Shown: in pieces, positions 4,021 to 21,344 of the stretch | How positions within the stretch are numbered: the stretch's first letter is position 1 | Layout of the letters: each line of letters begins with the position of its first letter | Source of the DNA: a virus | Strand: one strand, 5' to 3' | Length of the DNA stretch: 45,155 nucleotides | Virus record (IMG/VR): IMGVR_UViG_3300048582_000020 | Span: 1 to 45,155 of that record | Position numbers and translations under genes: made by a program | The notes under the pieces: generated by a model | What the model saw: only the letters and a program-made list of their open reading frames with translations | The model's database searches: none | Told to the model about the DNA's origin: nothing

Positions 4021-4040
4021 GCCCCGGTTAATTCCGGGGC
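4021..4040 (+). terminator. GC-rich hairpin overlapping a phage promoter
   Basis: GCCCCGG (4021-4027) and CCGGGGC (4034-4040) form a perfect 7-bp stem with a six-base loop TTAATT. The 3' arm is also the first half of the promoter-like motif at 4032-4053. Only a short T run follows (ACCTTTATGG). It may end transcripts of the gp16-like gene weakly or act as a processing site; on the DNA level it could also shape the promoter. Confidence 0.45.
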
Positions 4041-4066: not shown

Positions 4067-5479
4067 ATGGCACTTTCAAGTAAAACTATCACCTACACTG
4101 GCGGCCCTCAAGTGTTTAACATTGCGTTCGCGCTTGGTGTTCTTGAGACTGACCATCTTTCTGTTCAAGTAGTTGGAGACGTTGATGGGTTTGGTGATCC
4201 CATTGAATACGCATTCACTTACGATCCTAATACTGGCGATGTTACTGTAACGGATACGCTAACTGTAAACGACGTAGTATACATTAGCCGCACAACGCCG
4301 ATTGATGTTTTGCTAGTTGACTTTGAAGCTGGTGCTGACGTGTCGCGCAGGAACATTGACCGAGCCGTTAAACAAGCTTTGATGGTTACTCAAGAAGCGT
4401 CTGATGCTCGCGCGGAAGACGCGGCTACTGTGCAAGAATTGTCTGAGCTTTACGCCACTATTCCAGCAGATGTTGCTGCCGCTGAGGCTGCTGCTGCTAC
4501 TGCTACTGCGCAGGCTCTTGCGTCTGCTGCGAGCGCCGCTGCTGCGTTGGCCAAAGAAAACTCTATGCTTGACGATGCAGGCGACTGGCTAACAGCCACT
4601 CTGTATACACCATCGCAGATTTACACGTATGATGGTACAGCGTATATTACGCTCGTATCGCACACGTCTACGTCTGTTGCTGCTGACCTTAGTTCTGGCA
4701 AGGTGCGAGTGTTCGTTGCAAAAGGTGCCGCTGGACCCGGCTCAGGTGATATGCTTAACAGCGATAACCTTAGCGGTCTTGTTAGCAAACCTACTGCTAG
4801 GAATAACCTTGGCGTCGCTATCGGATCACAGGTGCAGGCATGGAATGCTAAGCTAGATCAGCTTGCCGCACCTGCGTATGTACGTGGCGATCTTATTCGC
4901 AGCGGCGCGGCGTCTCTAGAGCGCATTGCTATTGGTGCTGCTGGTAAAGTGTTTATTAGTGACGGCGTTGACCCGGTGTGGGGCGATAGCCCTGATTGGA
5001 AGAATGTTTGGCATCCTTACAACATGGTTACTCCGGGTGATGGTAATACCGGACGCTTCTACAACAACACGTTTACGGCAAGTATTGCGGGACCTTCGCT
5101 AGATGCTGGTTACGACTACATCATACGCGGTATTGGTATTAGCCATAACGTAAACAACCTTAACTCTCAGCAGAGGTTTACGGTTAACGGTGTAGCAAGC
5201 TCGCTAGTAATTGGTGGAAATAGCGGTGCGTCGCGGTCGGTTAACTTTTGGGCGCAGCTAGAGTCACCTAAAGTAGCAAACTGGCCTAAAGGCGCAACAG
5301 GATTTTACAGGATAGATAATGGTAGCAATAACGCGCCGTTTACTATCTCATTCGCAAACAACGCTACCACGGTAGATAGCCTAACGTTTACGTGGGTTAA
5401 CGAAGACTCGGGTGGCGGTACTGCTAGCTATGACGCTGGCGAACTGTTCCTGTACCGCAGAAAGACACTGATACTGTGA
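4067..5479 (+). CDS. Tail fibre protein (T7 gp17-like N terminus)
   Basis: The first about 120 residues fit the T7 gp17-type tail-fibre anchor: an opening with ITYTGG, a Y-DPNTGDVTV stretch, then TTPIDVLLVDFEAGADVSRRNIDRA, a hallmark of this family, where the fibre joins the tail. Residues about 120-170 are an alanine-rich heptad-like segment (AEAAAATATAQALASAASAA), a likely trimeric coiled coil. The remaining 300 residues are beta-rich and would bind the host surface; this part is not recognised. At 470 residues it is shorter than T7 gp17 (553). A ribosome site (AAGGAAA) precedes the ATG and promoter 1 lies just upstream. No pyramid-tip or endosialidase motif was seen, so the receptor is unknown. 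Confidence 0.9.
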   Translation: MALSSKTITYTGGPQVFNIAFALGVLETDHLSVQVVGDVDGFGDPIEYAFTYDPNTGDVTVTDTLTVNDVVYISRTTPIDVLLVDFEAGADVSRRNIDRAVKQALMVTQEASDARAEDAATVQELSELYATIPADVAAAEAAAATATAQALASAASAAAALAKENSMLDDAGDWLTATLYTPSQIYTYDGTAYITLVSHTSTSVAADLSSGKVRVFVAKGAAGPGSGDMLNSDNLSGLVSKPTARNNLGVAIGSQVQAWNAKLDQLAAPAYVRGDLIRSGAASLERIAIGAAGKVFISDGVDPVWGDSPDWKNVWHPYNMVTPGDGNTGRFYNNTFTASIAGPSLDAGYDYIIRGIGISHNVNNLNSQQRFTVNGVASSLVIGGNSGASRSVNFWAQLESPKVANWPKGATGFYRIDNGSNNAPFTISFANNATTVDSLTFTWVNEDSGGGTASYDAGELFLYRRKTLIL

Positions 5480-12671: not shown

Positions 12672-12687
12672 TCCCGTGTAACTACGG

Positions 12688-12717
12688 TGCTATGCATGCT
12701 TAACTGTGTGCATAGCA
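12688..12717 (+). other. Inverted repeat after last late gene
   Basis: TGCTATGCA (12688-12696) and TGCATAGCA (12709-12717) are perfect complements with a 12-base loop. No T run follows. The half sequence GCATAG recurs at about 13090, 13109, 13147 and 13166, so the stem shares its motif with the repeats of this region. Confidence 0.5.
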
Positions 12718-12974
12718 GTAGTAGGATCAGAAAAATGACGTAGAATTTCGTAGGGGTATCGAACATCACGCGCGATTGAGTTTCCCCCATGGGGTATGCC
12801 TGTGTATTTCTGCACAATGCCAGCGATATACCGGAACAAACACGCTTGAATGCCTGCTATCAATAACCTTTCATCCATTGCTTTCAATGCCTTAGCAAAT
12901 ACGCACAAAGCCAAAGCTACATGTTAGTCCAGATTTCGGCATGCCTGCTAAGTCATTGTTTTTATTGCCTTATG

Positions 12975-12996
12975 TTCCGGGGCAGCTTTATGGAGA
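12975..12996 (+). promoter_or_regulatory. Candidate phage RNA polymerase promoter 2
   Basis: TTCCGGGGCAGCTTTATGGA plus GA matches the other three sites, with one change in the middle (CAGC instead of CACC) and GGAGA at the start point, the closest of the four to the T7 GGGAGA start. It lies in the gene-free region and would transcribe toward the early genes. T7 has similar promoters near its left end that serve replication and DNA entry. Confidence 0.65.
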
Positions 12997-13043
12997 AGAT
13001 AGCTTAATACCTATCAATACCTGCATGTGTGACATTTATGCCA

Positions 13044-13065
13044 ATCAGTAACAAAGTATGTATTA
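13044..13065 (+). repeat. Shared block (copy 1) downstream of promoter 2
   Basis: ATCAGTAACAAAGTATGTAT plus TA matches 33632-33653 in 19 of 22 bases. Both copies lie downstream of a phage promoter motif (by about 47 and 24 bases), and both are in AT-rich DNA. Function unknown; an origin element or a host -10-like region is possible. Confidence 0.45.
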
Positions 13066-13079
13066 TATATACAACACTA

Positions 13080-13170
13080 AACAATACTGCATAGACCATG
13101 CAACAAACGCATAGCTAAGAAGCTGGCACTCGATATGCATCTAATGCATAGCTCTAACAATACTGCATAG
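13080..13170. repeat. 15-bp direct repeat AACAATACTGCATAG, two copies
   Basis: AACAATACTGCATAG occurs at 13080-13094 and 13156-13170. Between them GCATAGCT occurs twice more in partial form (13109, 13147). Short repeats next to the genome ends of T7 and T3 act in packaging or concatemer processing, so this may mark the end region here. Confidence 0.6.
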
Positions 13171-13231
13171 CTCGATTAGCATGTATATAGATACGCGCGT
13201 CTTATCCTTAAGATCAAAGACTGCTCGATGA

Positions 13232-13275
13232 TACCAATCAAATACCAAATCAGTACCAAATCAGTACCGAATCAG
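13232..13275. repeat. Tandem 11-bp repeats, TACCAAATCAG type
   Basis: TACCAAATCAG stands at 13243-13253 and again at 13254-13264, followed by TACCGAATCAG at 13265-13275 and preceded by a degenerate unit TACCAATCA at 13232. The spacing of one helical turn looks like iterons or like the short repeats beside T7-type terminal repeats. Confidence 0.65.
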
Positions 13276-13390
13276 TCTAATGCATTGATATCATTAGATA
13301 ATATACCAATGGCCTATCAAATGGGTTAGAACATCTAGATACATTCAAAGTAATCTATCTGATAAGTCATTGATTTCATTGCATTCTTTT

Positions 13391-13420
13391 CTTACACAAT
13401 CCCGAAAATAGGTCTATAAC
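13391..13420 (+). promoter_or_regulatory. Candidate host sigma-70-type promoter for early genes
   Basis: CTTACA (13391-13396) and TATAAC (13415-13420) are separated by 18 bases and follow an AT-rich stretch. Host RNA polymerase must read the early genes of such a phage, and this is the best -35/-10 pair I found ahead of them. It lies about 640 bases before the first gene; other promoters nearer to 14064 may exist (TATATATAAA at 13819 has no good -35). Confidence 0.3.
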
Positions 13421-13848
13421 TAGGTACATCGAAAGACGGAACGAACCGCTAGCCGCTAGGGCTGGCCTACGGGTCTCTCTCTAGATAACATACTTTCACT
13501 TAGGCATAGGGCTGTAAGGTTCTGTGACTGGGCAGTCATGACCTACCTGACTGAGTAAGATGAGTGGCGCAAACCTATCGCTATAGGTCTAGTTAACGGC
13601 TAGTATCCCGGACAGTAACGCAACGGCATAACGTGTAGTTTTGATACATAGGCATACGTCTAGGTATCGGGATAGATCACGGTCGGTAGTGGATGACCAT
13701 CAAAGGGCCACAAGTGCGCAGCGGCGCCGGATTACCGGGCATAAGGACAACGCATCGCCCTGATGATCGCTGGATAGCGAACAGAAGGATTGGCACGGTG
13801 CTGGTCGCCCTAACAGCGTATATATAAAGGCTGCACGGGAAGTCAGAC

Positions 13849-13933
13849 GTACTGTCACCATACGGTACATGATAGCTAAGTGGGTCCAAGCCCATTATCG
13901 CAAGATAGGCTATCAGTATCGTTTTGGTGATAG
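13849..13933 (+). ncRNA. Structured leader of the early transcript
   Basis: GTACTG (13849-13854) pairs with CGGTAC (13863-13868), closed by one wobble pair. Directly after it, TGATAGC (13870-13876) pairs perfectly with GCTATCA (13909-13915) and encloses two hairpins: TGGG/CCCA (13881-13894) and TATC-GCAA-GATA (13896-13907) with a GNRA loop. CTATCA of the closing stem can instead pair with TGATAG at 13928-13933, and TGGTGATAG (13925-13933) with CTATCACCA at 14039-14047, just before the ribosome site of the first early gene. These choices exclude each other, so a switch, an RNase III site or a stability element is possible. Pairing was worked out by hand. Confidence 0.4.
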
Positions 13934-14063
13934 TATGCAGCACAGGACCAGCGGTATATCCTCAAATGCATGGCGGACCGTATAGCGGTGTGAAGCTCGC
14001 GATATTAACCTAGCATGGTTTAAATCCTGTGTTGCATTCTATCACCAGCAACAGGAGATTGCT

Positions 14064-14597
14064 ATGTCTACGCTTAACCAGAAGGTTGCGGCTTTCCTTA
14101 AGTCGCATAAGAACCAGTCGGCAGCCGCAATGGCTCTGCTTGGTGTTGTTATGGAACACGCTCTGTCCAGCCGTGACTGGACGCCTATGGCACGTCTGAC
14201 ACAAGGTGTTGAGCCTCGCATGCAGCGTCGTATGCAACAGATCATCGGTCGGTGCATGGGTGGCGTCACTGGTTCGACCGACACGAAGGCTGAGTTCGGC
14301 TATCGCTTCAAACTCGGTGACAATGCTGCGTTCACCGATCAGAAGGCTGAGTTTGATATCCTGATCGCACAGAAGGTCGGTATCTATTCCGGTGACGTTG
14401 AGAAGTTCCTTGGCCTTGACGTGAAAGCACCTGCTGTGTTTGATCCGGCTGCACGTGCTACCGCATTGGCTGAGAAAGCCGTTGAGGCTGGTACTGATCT
14501 GGACCTGCTGCTTGAACTGGTCAAGCGTGCGTACATCAAGGCGAACGCTGCTAAGGTTCCGGTTTCTGCTAAGGTCGAAGGCGAGCCTGCGCACTGA
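14064..14597 (+). CDS. First early protein, hypothetical
   Basis: A 177-residue protein, the first gene after the gene-free region. It is not recognised. The N-terminal third (LNQKVAAFLKSHKNQSAAAMALLGVVMEHALSSRDW) is helical and basic; the rest alternates charged helices, with LAEKAVEAGTDLDLLLELVKRAYIKAN near the end. AGGAG (14052-14056) gives a good ribosome site. By place it should be made first in infection and may shut off or modify host functions, as T7 gene 0.3-0.7 products do; nothing in the sequence shows which. Confidence 0.75.
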   Translation: MSTLNQKVAAFLKSHKNQSAAAMALLGVVMEHALSSRDWTPMARLTQGVEPRMQRRMQQIIGRCMGGVTGSTDTKAEFGYRFKLGDNAAFTDQKAEFDILIAQKVGIYSGDVEKFLGLDVKAPAVFDPAARATALAEKAVEAGTDLDLLLELVKRAYIKANAAKVPVSAKVEGEPAH

Positions 14598-17931: not shown

Positions 17932-17953
17932 TTCCGGGACACCTTTATGGAAA
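17932..17953 (+). promoter_or_regulatory. Candidate phage RNA polymerase promoter 3
   Basis: TTCCGGGACACCTTTATGGA plus AA is identical over 22 bases to the site at 33586 and differs by one base from the site at 4032. The GACAC part equals the box of SP6 promoters at the same distance from the start. It lies in a 124-base gap and would drive the replication genes. Confidence 0.75.
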
Positions 17954-18047: not shown

Positions 18048-18455
18048 ATGACCAAAGACTTCTTTGACTTCGCCGACCTCTCGGACCTGCCGGAAGAACT
18101 GCGTGGCAAACTCACCCGTGAGACCGACGAAGCTGTCAAAGCTTGGGCTGGCATTGTCCAGCAGGGCGTTGCCCGTGGCTATGACGCTCTGAACATCAAC
18201 CAGATCGTTGCTGTTGCTCATCGTATGGGCGTTGAAGTTCCCGGCATGCAAACTGTCCGTGGATACCTCAAGCGCGCCATTGAGCTTAAGCTCATCGGTA
18301 AGCCTACCCCGCGTTCGTATGGCGCTCCGGGCGTTGTTGTCGCTGGCGATGACGAGGATGAAGCAGATGCTGCACCGGAAGTCGCAACCAACGTCAAAGA
18401 CGCTGCACCTGCTGCTCAATCGGCTGACGACGTGCTGAACGCACTGACCGCCTAA
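18048..18455 (+). CDS. Hypothetical acidic protein, first gene after promoter 3
   Basis: A 135-residue protein, acidic at both ends (DFFDFADLSDLPEELRG; DDEDEADAAPEVATNVKDAAPAAQSADDVLNAL), with a basic helical middle that looks like a winged-helix or helix-turn-helix part (NINQIVAVAHRMGVEVPGMQTVRGYLKRAIELKLIGKP). The acidic low-complexity tail resembles that of ssDNA-binding and DNA-mimic proteins. Codon use (CTC, ACC, CCG) is more GC-rich than in early neighbours, suggesting strong expression or different origin. TAGGA precedes the ATG. Function unknown. Confidence 0.65.
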   Translation: MTKDFFDFADLSDLPEELRGKLTRETDEAVKAWAGIVQQGVARGYDALNINQIVAVAHRMGVEVPGMQTVRGYLKRAIELKLIGKPTPRSYGAPGVVVAGDDEDEADAAPEVATNVKDAAPAAQSADDVLNALTA

Positions 18456-18573: not shown

Positions 18574-18795
18574 ATGAAACTCACCATCACCGCTATCTTC
18601 GCCGCTCTGTTCGCAACTGCCTCGTTTGCAGGTTCGACTGAGAACATCACTGGCTGTGCCACTGAGCCAGTCGAAGGCGCGAACTTCACTGTGCGCTCCG
18701 ACGTGTACTGCGCCCTGCCCACCACTGGTGGCAACGGTGCTGACGCTCTGATCGTCGCGGCTGTTAAGGAAGTCATCGAAGACCTCCAGAACTAA
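18574..18795 (+). CDS. Secreted (periplasmic) small protein
   Basis: A 73-residue protein with a clear Sec signal peptide: MKLTITAIFAALFATASFA, cut probably after Ala19 (ASFA-G). The mature part is 54 residues with two cysteines (ITGCATEP and DVYCALPT), well placed for a disulfide in the periplasm, and an acidic helical end (ALIVAAVKEVIEDLQN). A hairpin lies before and a strong terminator directly after the gene, so it may be a unit on its own and strongly made. A role at the envelope, such as blocking other phages, is inference only. Codon use is GC-rich. Ribosome site AGAAAG. Confidence 0.75.
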   Translation: MKLTITAIFAALFATASFAGSTENITGCATEPVEGANFTVRSDVYCALPTTGGNGADALIVAAVKEVIEDLQN

Positions 18796-18801
18796 TTCTA
18801 T

Positions 18802-18832
18802 CGGCAGGGCCTTGTGCTCTGCCGTTTTATTT
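18802..18832 (+). terminator. Intrinsic terminator after secreted-protein gene
   Basis: CGGCAGGGC (18802-18810) pairs with GCTCTGCCG (18816-18824), with one wobble pair and a five-base loop, followed by TTTTATTT. This is the standard form of a factor-independent terminator. Its 3' arm CTGCCG and the T run are also the first part of a 23-bp inverted repeat arm (18819-18841), so the terminator and the longer stem exclude each other. Confidence 0.75.
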
Positions 18833-18973
18833 GGGAGTGCCGAGTAGCATTGCGGAATGCTACTCACGAATGCATCCGCAGCATTCATGGCGACACGATG
18901 CACCAAGTGGGTGTATTAGGATCGCAAGTCGGTCGTTATTCAGACGGGCAGGCACTCCCAAATAAAACGGCAG
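18819..18973 (+). ncRNA. Cloverleaf-like structured element with 23-bp perfect inverted repeat
   Basis: Bases 18819-18841 are the exact reverse complement of 18951-18973 (23 pairs, arms beginning CTGCCGTTTTATTT). The 109-base interior holds hairpin A, GAGTAGCATT (18842-18851) with AATGCTACTC (18856-18865), loop GCGG; hairpin B, GAATGC (18868-18873) with GCATTC (18881-18886); and hairpin C, GATGCACC (18897-18904) with GGTGTATT (18910-18917), closed further by GCGA (18890) with TCGC (18922). The form is a long closing stem with three arms. A ribosome site (18975-18980) follows at once. It could be an RNase III site, a free small RNA, an attenuator with the overlapping terminator, or a cruciform in DNA. 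Confidence 0.5.
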
Positions 18974-18987
18974 CAAGGAGAACTAAC

Positions 18988-19398
18988 ATGAACGATATCG
19001 TTAAGGCTGTGCTGTCGCACAGTAACTTTTTTCAAGATGTTCGGTACTATGTTTCATGCTCGCGTAACGCAGAAAGCCTACTGCATATCAAGATGCACAT
19101 GGCAGCGCACGTAGCTAACATGTACGGTATGCTTGCCTTCATCTATGAAGACGAGGTTAAATTCGTGTCGCATGAGACGCCAGCTACATGCATACTTGTA
19201 TCGCGTAACCCTAGTCAGGAAGACTTGGGCAACGCATCGTTCATTGCGTATACACCTCGCGGGGTTGTCGCTGTAATCCCCACACCCGGAGAATTGTACA
19301 ATGAGGTCACAGGAGTGGCTAACGCAAGCGAAGGAACTGGAGATAGGCAGCAGGAAGAAGATACCTCACTGCAGTACTACTCCGACAGCGTACATTAA
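18988..19398 (+). CDS. Hypothetical protein
   Basis: A 136-residue protein of unknown function, with a helical, histidine-rich start (LLHIKMHMAAHVANMYGMLAF) and a beta part (VKFVSHETPATCILVSRNPSQ). ATG 18988 has AAGGAG seven bases ahead; the frame is open further upstream through the structured element, but that part looks untranslated. Its 3' end overlaps the primase by 98 bases in another frame, long for this genome, so the last third may be of relaxed sequence. Not recognised. Confidence 0.6.
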   Translation: MNDIVKAVLSHSNFFQDVRYYVSCSRNAESLLHIKMHMAAHVANMYGMLAFIYEDEVKFVSHETPATCILVSRNPSQEDLGNASFIAYTPRGVVAVIPTPGELYNEVTGVANASEGTGDRQQEEDTSLQYYSDSVH

Positions 19399-20110
19399 CT
19401 CGGGTTCTAAGGGCTATAACATCAACTGCTTCCGCTGTGGGTACACTGAGTTCGTGCGCGCAGAGCGGTCAGCTAAAGACCTGATGAAGCTACGTGCAGG
19501 AACTGATGAAGTGCGTGCTGTACGTGGTATGCCAGACACTGCTGTAACTGTCACTCAAGCAGATGAAGATTTGCTCGTGTGGTTGCTCAAGGGCGGTATG
19601 ACGCCAGAGGCGGCCGACAAGTACGGTATGCGCTGGCACCCGCCTAGCAAGCGATTGCTTATACCTATTCGCGATGCCAAAGGTAAGCTCTCGGGTATAC
19701 TAGGTCGCTCTGCTACAGAGAAGCCTAAGTACCTCATGCTGCAGGGATCGCCCGGCCTGCACTACGAGCGCTCCGGCTTTGATGGCGGTACGCTCGTGGT
19801 AGTTGAAGACGTGCTGTCTGCAATACATGTAGCTAAGGCGGGATACAACTGCGTTGCTCTTATTGGTAAAAGTATATCGCATGAGCAAGCGGTTGTGTTC
19901 GCTGACTACAGGTTCGTTGTGTCTTTCACTGACCCAGATGCTGGCGGTGACGAGGCACGCAAGGTTCTACGTAAACGTGCTGCGCTGTACGATTGTAAGT
20001 TACTCAGGGCTTACAGCGAAGTCGATCCAAAGTACCTGACACAAGAAGAGATAAGGGATGCAGTTAGAAAGGCATTAAATGATCGACCTAACCCTGCTAC
20101 GTATTCTTAA
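19301..20110 (+). CDS. DNA primase (zinc finger plus TOPRIM), separate from helicase
   Basis: A 269-residue primase. The N terminus holds a zinc-binding site (His23-Cys24 in KKIPHCST, then Cys43-x2-Cys46 in NCFRCGY), which reads the priming site on DNA. A TOPRIM domain follows at about 150-225: LVVVEDVLSAIHVAKAG with the catalytic Glu, and VVSFTDPDAGGDEARK with the DxD metal site. It makes RNA primers on the lagging strand. In T7 the primase and helicase are one protein (gp4); here they are two genes overlapping by 32 bases. GGAG about nine bases ahead supports ATG 19301. Confidence 0.85.
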   Translation: MRSQEWLTQAKELEIGSRKKIPHCSTTPTAYINSGSKGYNINCFRCGYTEFVRAERSAKDLMKLRAGTDEVRAVRGMPDTAVTVTQADEDLLVWLLKGGMTPEAADKYGMRWHPPSKRLLIPIRDAKGKLSGILGRSATEKPKYLMLQGSPGLHYERSGFDGGTLVVVEDVLSAIHVAKAGYNCVALIGKSISHEQAVVFADYRFVVSFTDPDAGGDEARKVLRKRAALYDCKLLRAYSEVDPKYLTQEEIRDAVRKALNDRPNPATYS

Positions 20111-21344
20111 AGTCCGCGATGACTTTTACAAGATACGCGGCAAAATTCCTGAGAGTGCCTTGGACACACAGACTAGCATCTTGCTAGGTGACTACGGCAA
20201 ATACTTCGACAAGTTCCCAGACCATGCTGTGATTAACTTCGACGTGTTCCTTCCGCTGTTCCGTGCTTGGCATAGCGGGCTTAAGGAAGACACGCGGCAT
20301 GCGCTGGAAGTTATTCTGCTTAACGCTAAGCAAGACGTAGACGCAGATGCTAAGTCGCACGTAATGAAGTCTCTGCTTGAGCTTAAGCTATCGGCTCGCG
20401 TTGCGTCTCTCATTAACTCATTCGAGGAAGGTGAGCTAGATAATCTGCACGGTAAGCTGAGTACGAGTATCCAAGAGTTCCAAGCAGACGCTAACCTGCA
20501 TGTGCAGGAGTACATCGACGACACTATCGAAAGCATCCTCGCAGAAGAGGAAGACGGTAGCGGTATCAAGTTCAGGCTTAACTGTTTGAACGAGAGCATG
20601 CGGCCTATGCGTGGCGGTGATTTCGGTATTGTTGCTGGTCGGCCTGATCGCGGCAAGACTACGTGGATTGCCAGCGAGTGTACGTTCTGGGCACCGCAAT
20701 GCGAACCTGATCGCAATGTGCTGTGGCTTAACAATGAAGGTCCGGGTAAGCGTATCATCCCACGTCTGTATCAAGCTGCGCTTGGCGTTAGCCGTACGAA
20801 GCTCGTTGAGCTATCGAACAAGGGTGTGCTTGGTGCGGTGTACGATAAGATCGTTGGTCGGCGTGACAAGATCAGGATCGTGGACATTCACGGTGCTGAC
20901 AATTACGACGTGCAGCAGATCATTCAGAAGAACAATGCGCAGATCGTGATATATGACATGATCGACAACATTCGTGGCTTCGGTGATAGCGCACGTACAG
21001 ACCTCGGGCTGGAGAAGATGTATCAGTGGGGACGTGAGACTGCAGTACGTTTCGATGCTATTGGAATTGCTACGTCGCAAATCTCTGCAGAGGGTAACAA
21101 CCTGCAGTTCCCCGGTCAGTCAATGCTTAAGGACAGCAAGACTGGTAAGCAAGGTGCCTGTGACTTCATCATTATGCTAGGTGCACTTGATGATCCCGGC
21201 TATGCCAATACACGTTGGATTGGCGTTCCAAAGAACAAGCTACGCAAAGATGGTGGCCCCGGTGATCCACGCGCTACGGTTCAGTACGAGCCTATGCGGG
21301 CACGATACACCGATGAGCCTATGACAATGGAAGGCAAGGATTAA
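20079..21344 (+). CDS. Replicative DNA helicase (DnaB/gp4-like)
   Basis: A 421-residue RecA-fold helicase. An N-terminal helical domain (1-140) is followed by the ATPase core with Walker A AGRPDRGKTT (residues 186-195), Walker B QIVIYDMIDNI near 286-296, and a motif with ATSQIS that senses phosphate. Near the end KNKLRKDGGPGDPRATVQYEP resembles the C-terminal loops of phage helicases. It would unwind the fork as a hexamer together with the primase encoded just ahead. AGAAAGG lies six bases before the ATG. The stop codon overlaps the next start by one base. Confidence 0.85.
   Translation: MIDLTLLRILKVRDDFYKIRGKIPESALDTQTSILLGDYGKYFDKFPDHAVINFDVFLPLFRAWHSGLKEDTRHALEVILLNAKQDVDADAKSHVMKSLLELKLSARVASLINSFEEGELDNLHGKLSTSIQEFQADANLHVQEYIDDTIESILAEEEDGSGIKFRLNCLNESMRPMRGGDFGIVAGRPDRGKTTWIASECTFWAPQCEPDRNVLWLNNEGPGKRIIPRLYQAALGVSRTKLVELSNKGVLGAVYDKIVGRRDKIRIVDIHGADNYDVQQIIQKNNAQIVIYDMIDNIRGFGDSARTDLGLEKMYQWGRETAVRFDAIGIATSQISAEGNNLQFPGQSMLKDSKTGKQGACDFIIMLGALDDPGYANTRWIGVPKNKLRKDGGPGDPRATVQYEPMRARYTDEPMTMEGKD

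Follow-up and report, generated by a model that had tools for sequence, protein, structure and literature searches.

A probable RNase III-type processing stem built onto the early terminator of a phiKMV-like phage

A 45,155-base IMG/VR virus record assembled from a metagenome (hereafter the window) carries, ahead of its replication genes, a strong intrinsic terminator that merges into a perfect 23-bp closing stem around four hairpins. We consider this element to be probably a processing site for an RNase III-type enzyme of the host, built onto the early terminator, at which read-through RNA would be cut before the replication genes. Sequence comparison shows that long closing stems of two helical turns between the early genes of phiKMV-like phages form a recurrent class, to which the element belongs.

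The window represents a phiKMV-like member of Autographiviridae, with genes for a primase, a DnaB-like helicase, a DNA-transfer protein similar to T5 A1 and a single-subunit RNA polymerase, and its nearest named relatives are Paracoccus phages ParMal1 and ParKuw1 and phage MedPE-SWcel-C56. The element and the genes around it all lie on the plus strand. Upstream are a gene kept at the same place in relatives (18048-18455; 45% identical in record L033) and, just 5' of the terminator, a gene (18574-18795) whose 73-aa product begins like a signal peptide. The counterpart of the latter secreted-protein gene in the closest relative, L027 (8287-8787), contains a long DPVDPV/DPIDPV repeat that is missing from the window protein. 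The first-pass annotation had placed the element in front of the primase region; the primase is indeed near, but the gene directly 3' of the element is a small one of no assigned function (18988-19398, 136 aa, with a weak homologue in L027), which is followed by the primase (19301-20110) and the helicase (20079-21344). An in-frame GTG reading frame running through the element (18814-19398) was set aside because the ribosome-binding site and the L027 homologue favour the ATG at 18988. A sequence that is probably the promoter of the phage RNA polymerase, CCGGGACACCTTTATG, precedes gene blocks at 4034, 12977, 17934 and 33588 of the window (two exact copies and two with 1-2 mismatches; chance 0.21) and occurs in exact form at 7723 of L027; the copy at 17934 lies 0.9 kb 5' of the element.

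The two arms of the closing stem (18819-18841 and 18951-18973), described in the first-pass annotation as exact reverse complements, are 100% complementary over 23 nt, enclose a spacer of 109 nt and constitute the best inverted repeat in the whole window. That annotation had also proposed folding the region and searching relatives for covariation. The computed fold of 18795-18990 reached -96.8 kcal/mol (z -9.8), whereas 200 dinucleotide shuffles gave -56.5 (sd 4.1) and never equalled the native sequence in stability, and the most stable 180-nt fold anywhere in the window is that of the element region. At least three hairpins had been expected in the interior, the first with ten perfect pairs; the computed fold contains four, namely hairpin 1 (18842-18865), which does have ten perfect pairs and a GCGG loop at 18852-18855, hairpin 2 (18868-18886) with six pairs and the loop AUCCGCA, hairpin 3 (18890-18925), which includes G-U pairs and is weaker on the opposite strand, and hairpin 4 (18928-18949). 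When folded separately, this interior has a z of -5.2 on the coding strand versus -2.5 on the opposite strand. Six bases in the loop of hairpin 2, UCCGCA, are complementary to UGCGGA at the hairpin 1 tip, and a kissing contact between the two loops is possible; counted over every pair of loops, such a match has a chance of about 0.7%. As had been noticed before, a single base (C18974) separates arm 2 from the AAGGAG at 18975-18980, and the segment 18974-18990, CAAGGAGAACTAACATG, provides the ribosome-binding site and the start codon (ATG at 18988) of the next gene. Searches of Rfam 15 at gathering and loose thresholds returned chance matches only and no family for the element. A tRNA or tRNA-like cloverleaf was rejected, as ARAGORN reported none and the interior has no T-loop motif.

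The terminator occupies 18802-18832 and has the G+C-rich hairpin and following U-run expected of an intrinsic terminator: a 9-pair stem with a 5-nt loop (18802-18824) and then TTTTATTT. In full, CGGCAGGGC-CTTGT-GCTCTGCCG TTTTATTT ranks first among the terminator-like sites between 12.5 and 20.2 kb. The coordinates agree with the earlier observation that CTGCCG, its 3' half, and the U-run lie inside arm 1 and that arm 2 terminates in CGGCAG, from which it had been proposed that the same strand can form either a terminator or a long stem. Computed folding with stepwise lengthening of the transcript 3' end bears this out: the terminator hairpin has a probability of 0.99 up to an RNA end at 18964, the two structures largely coexist at 18970 (terminator 0.87, closing stem 0.79 on average), and with the end at 18976 the probability of the terminator is down to 0.04 and that of the closing stem up to 0.96. 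They compete for the six pairs of CTGCCG only, the other 17 pairs of the stem being compatible with the terminator, and forcing the terminator in the computed fold costs 5.2 kcal/mol. Arm 2 starts 127 nt past the terminator stem; by the time it is transcribed the polymerase has left the terminator behind, so arm 2 cannot bring about antitermination and can refold read-through RNA only. The attenuator controlling entry into the replication genes, one of four functions suggested in the first-pass annotation, was thus rejected together with any classic antiterminator, because the alternative pairing cannot precede terminator action (probability 0.99 until arm 2 is made). In the predicted read-through fold, CCUUG (18810-18814) also pairs with CAAGG (18974-18978); these five pairs cover part of the Shine-Dalgarno sequence and leave the first bases of the ribosome-binding site about 95% paired, and in the predicted cut product the site is freed only in part. 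Since this helix is short and spans a bulge, we take it as suggestive only.

To place the element among its relatives, about 60 Autographiviridae records related via the helicase were scanned for closing stems (stem score at least 14, loop 30-200), the region within 10 kb upstream of the helicase being regarded as early. There were 55 stems upstream of the helicase versus 3 downstream (2.4 and 1.6 in shuffled sequence), 42 of the 55 being mostly intergenic with respect to called genes; the records are related to one another and these counts are not independent. Arm lengths form a separate peak at 20-24 bases (n=53 versus about 4 per shuffle) with its maximum at 21-22. Two turns of A-form RNA correspond to 21-22 bp, which is the size usually quoted for a full RNase III substrate. 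At positions that are not Watson-Crick pairs, G·U outnumbers A·C (50 versus 19) and U·U outnumbers A·A (23 versus 4), with p values of about 0.002 and 0.003 in slid-arm controls. Neither excess is expected from DNA pairing or from the other strand, so the coding-strand RNA appears to be the selected molecule in the class, and the predominance of G·U pairs over A·C disfavours, for the class, the DNA cruciform that had been another of the four suggestions. Many members end within 40 bases of a start codon preceded by a Shine-Dalgarno sequence, while others end well away from any start. Most of the stems carry mismatches, unlike the perfect one described here. The interiors of 41 members have a mean z of -0.57, barely beyond shuffles, and are mostly unstructured and poorly conserved; at -6.3, the interior of the element is an outlier, so the class accounts for the stem but not for the elaborate interior. 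Stems are present in Caulobacter phage Lullwater, Agrobacterium phage Atu_ph03, Rhizobium phages RHph_Y48 and Paso, and Paracoccus phages ParKuw1 and ParMal1, and Lullwater, Atu_ph03, RHph_Y48 and Paso are among the cultured phages in which they lie just 5' of annotated genes.

Several stems found in the scan are associated with tRNA-like sequences or an integrase gene. In L046 (2801-2914), the stem surrounds a degenerate cloverleaf that resembles a tRNA and has a T-arm (CCCGGTTCGACTCCGGC); its score as tRNA-Sec is weak, 17.7 bits, below threshold. The stem in L050 (5377-5475) encloses what reads like the 3' portion of a minus-strand tRNA, and a similar stem lies directly 3' of the integrase gene of Rhizobium phage RHph_Y48 (4303-4401); both resemble attachment sites more than processing sites. 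Since a few look-alikes located at an integrase or a tRNA fragment may serve for attachment, the class is probably mixed.

Compensatory changes were found in the class and in a sister element of the window. This second closing stem (13925-14047, plus strand) lies 5' of the first early gene (ATG at 14064) and has a homologue at 3870-3992 of L027; among its 35 pairs, 20 are identical, 9 have both bases altered with pairing retained, 2 show single changes and 4 are broken. Comparison of homologous stems in L078 and L083 gave 15 same, 4 double, 2 single and no broken pairs, and that of L073 and L099 gave 25, 6, 1 and 5, respectively. In several homologous sets (such as L042/L045 and L073/L077), the outer stem is kept and the interior is swapped or shrunk. 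L042 (6666-6762) and L045 (6150-6298) have the same stem at the same place, but the interiors, 47 and 103 nt long, cannot be aligned with each other, and the insert seems to be freely replaceable. The sister element stands at the end of about 1.4 kb without convincing genes (12672-14063), after which the first early gene begins, and a similar gap is observed in ParMal1, ParKuw1 and MedPE-SWcel-C56. A weaker closing stem of 13 bases is located 5' of gene 1 in phiKMV (1548-1662) and LUZ19 (1559-1673), overlapping the annotated gp0.1 in LUZ19, and is perhaps a counterpart of this leader element.

For the element itself, the proposed search yielded no homologue. No close relative was detected by DNA search of phage records, its exact arm pattern was absent from IMG/VR, and a covariance model run against 63 sources (1.2 Mb) recovered the element and one chance-level match only. 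Single queries (primase, downstream protein and DNA-transfer protein) retrieved zero or one distant locus each, and alignments used as queries succeeded; the genome collection provided one related Pannonibacter locus with no comparable stem upstream. L027 does not have the element, the two genes being 3 bases apart there. The covariation evidence thus covers the class and the sister element, not the element's own stem.

The union of terminator and stem was examined within 4 kb upstream of the helicase in 60 records, which contain 29 strong terminators and 21 strong stems. In four records (the window, L033, L035 and L046), a stem starts between -14 and +10 bases from the end of a terminator; random placement gives 0.09, and none of 20,000 permutations reached four, but because this range was chosen after two cases had been seen, the figure is indicative only. 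L033 offers the closest positional parallel: its terminator follows the homologue of the window gene at 18048-18455 and is succeeded by the stem, a small gene and the primase, and its arm 1 likewise absorbs the U-run of the terminator (CTTTCAT with ATGAAAG). L033 has no secreted-protein gene. The small gene after its element has no detectable homology to the one in the window, so this part of the match is positional.

RNase III is known to cut T7 early RNAs, a step that is important for translating several T7 messages (PMC4858673). The loops of bacterial RNase III targets range from four to thousands of nucleotides, and the model site of T7, R1.1, is a single compact hairpin that has internal mismatches and a short loop (PMC8708148). 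Similar to R1.1 and the other T7 sites, the element is a double-helical early intergenic RNA near the next ribosome-binding site in a phage with its own RNA polymerase, and it has two features of RNase III sites, a helix of about two turns and a location between early genes on the transcribed strand. It is not a compact single hairpin with a short loop; unlike in R1.1, four hairpins lie in a 109-nt interior within the closing stem, and the stem is joined to a terminator. By analogy, the element may work like the T7 sites while being built differently. The same scan of the first 20 kb of T7 revealed no stem of such build, nor did the same scans of phiKMV and LUZ19 reveal one between early genes; the first-pass statement that the element is not a known feature of T7-type phages therefore holds for its architecture but not for RNase III sites as such, which T7 has. 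With the RNase III stems that enclose ribosomal RNA precursors, from which the enzyme cuts out the structured insert, the element shares a long closing stem and, if it is cut as we propose, a structured insert that is removed, although this insert is 109 nt long, is not ribosomal RNA and has no known product. Its terminator resembles the early terminator of phiKMV (annotated at 5087-5110) and TE of T7 in ending the early region before the replication genes, but no closing stem follows the early terminator in phiKMV and LUZ19. The PeSL mobile promoter-stem-loop cassettes of T4-type phages also place stem-loops between early genes in fast-changing regions; the stems of the present class differ in being long, two-turn and covarying. 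We found no description of stems of such build in the phiKMV group in a literature search that covered only a minority of subscription journals.

Among the functions suggested in the first-pass annotation, an RNase III site is the best supported, by the two-turn length, the coding-strand asymmetry and the early intergenic position that is often near a ribosome-binding site. Several features fit this reading less well: the element has no sequence homologue in which its own stem could display covariation and is absent from L027, its interior is far more structured than a spacer requires, the stem is perfect unlike those of most class members, and release of the ribosome-binding site is only partial in the predicted cut product. 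The interior is what a rather unlikely alternative would explain, in which read-through transcripts yield a non-coding RNA consisting mainly of stem and hairpins, the interior has a role of its own (as a decoy, an antisense RNA or a protein-binding RNA) and the stem serves as frame or release site. Such a stable small RNA had also been suggested, and it gains from the outlying stability of the interior relative to the opposite strand and to the class, as well as from the possible six-base contact between the loops of hairpins 1 and 2; class interiors, however, are mostly unstructured and poorly conserved, homologous elements keep the outer stem while their interiors diverge or are reduced to a plain hairpin, this interior was found nowhere else in 1.2 Mb of relatives, and Rfam has no match even at a loose threshold.

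It is distinctly unlikely that the element acts in read-through RNA without RNase III, the stem masking the next ribosome-binding site and shielding message ends from exonucleases and thereby tuning translation and stability of the replication operon. Pairing of the first bases of that site and the many class stems ending close to a start codon would agree with such a role, but the sharp length peak at 21-22 bp is left unexplained and other members end far from a start codon. An element acting at the DNA level (a cruciform, a site of replication or recombination, or a small mobile element bounded by terminal inverted repeats) seems very improbable. The inverted repeat is perfect, a DNA strand can fold too, L027 lacks the element, and a few look-alike stems occur at integrase or tRNA-fragment sites; against this stand the class-wide mismatch asymmetries, which indicate coding-strand RNA, the single copy in the genome without a match in phage records, the flanks GTGCT and CAAGG, which show no target-site duplication, and the finding that none of the window proteins tested in its vicinity is a recombinase. 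We give hardly any credence to a plain terminator next to a functionless inverted repeat: the terminator is strong and occupies the position of the annotated early terminator of phiKMV, but the fold is far more stable than shuffled sequence and the combination of terminator and stem recurs in three further records.

While sequence and computation show the stem, its strand and its class membership, we infer cleavage, the nuclease responsible and the consequences for expression. Transcription first encounters the strong terminator, and in RNA that reads through, arm 2 can displace the terminator hairpin to form the 23-bp perfect helix around the four hairpins. According to the RNase III reading, the host enzyme then probably cuts this two-turn helix. 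Cutting would create a new 3' end on the upstream message and release the structured interior, and the message of the replication genes would have a short 5' end starting just before its ribosome-binding site, where the Shine-Dalgarno sequence, partly masked by CCUUG in uncut RNA, would be freer. A bolder version, which we regard as unlikely, is that a widespread and so far undescribed class of cassettes fuses early terminator and RNase III stem into one switch and that here the excised four-hairpin RNA with its loop-loop contact is a functional non-coding RNA, which would arise solely by read-through when early gene expression gives way to that of the replication genes. Because the named cultured phages (Lullwater, Atu_ph03, RHph_Y48, Paso, ParKuw1 and ParMal1) have such stems, their dependence on RNase III can be tested in culture. 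The two-turn RNA stems located between early genes of phiKMV-like phages thus form a class that can be recognised and that covaries, and some of them are fused to the early terminator, which gives a testable account of the passage from early to replication gene expression.
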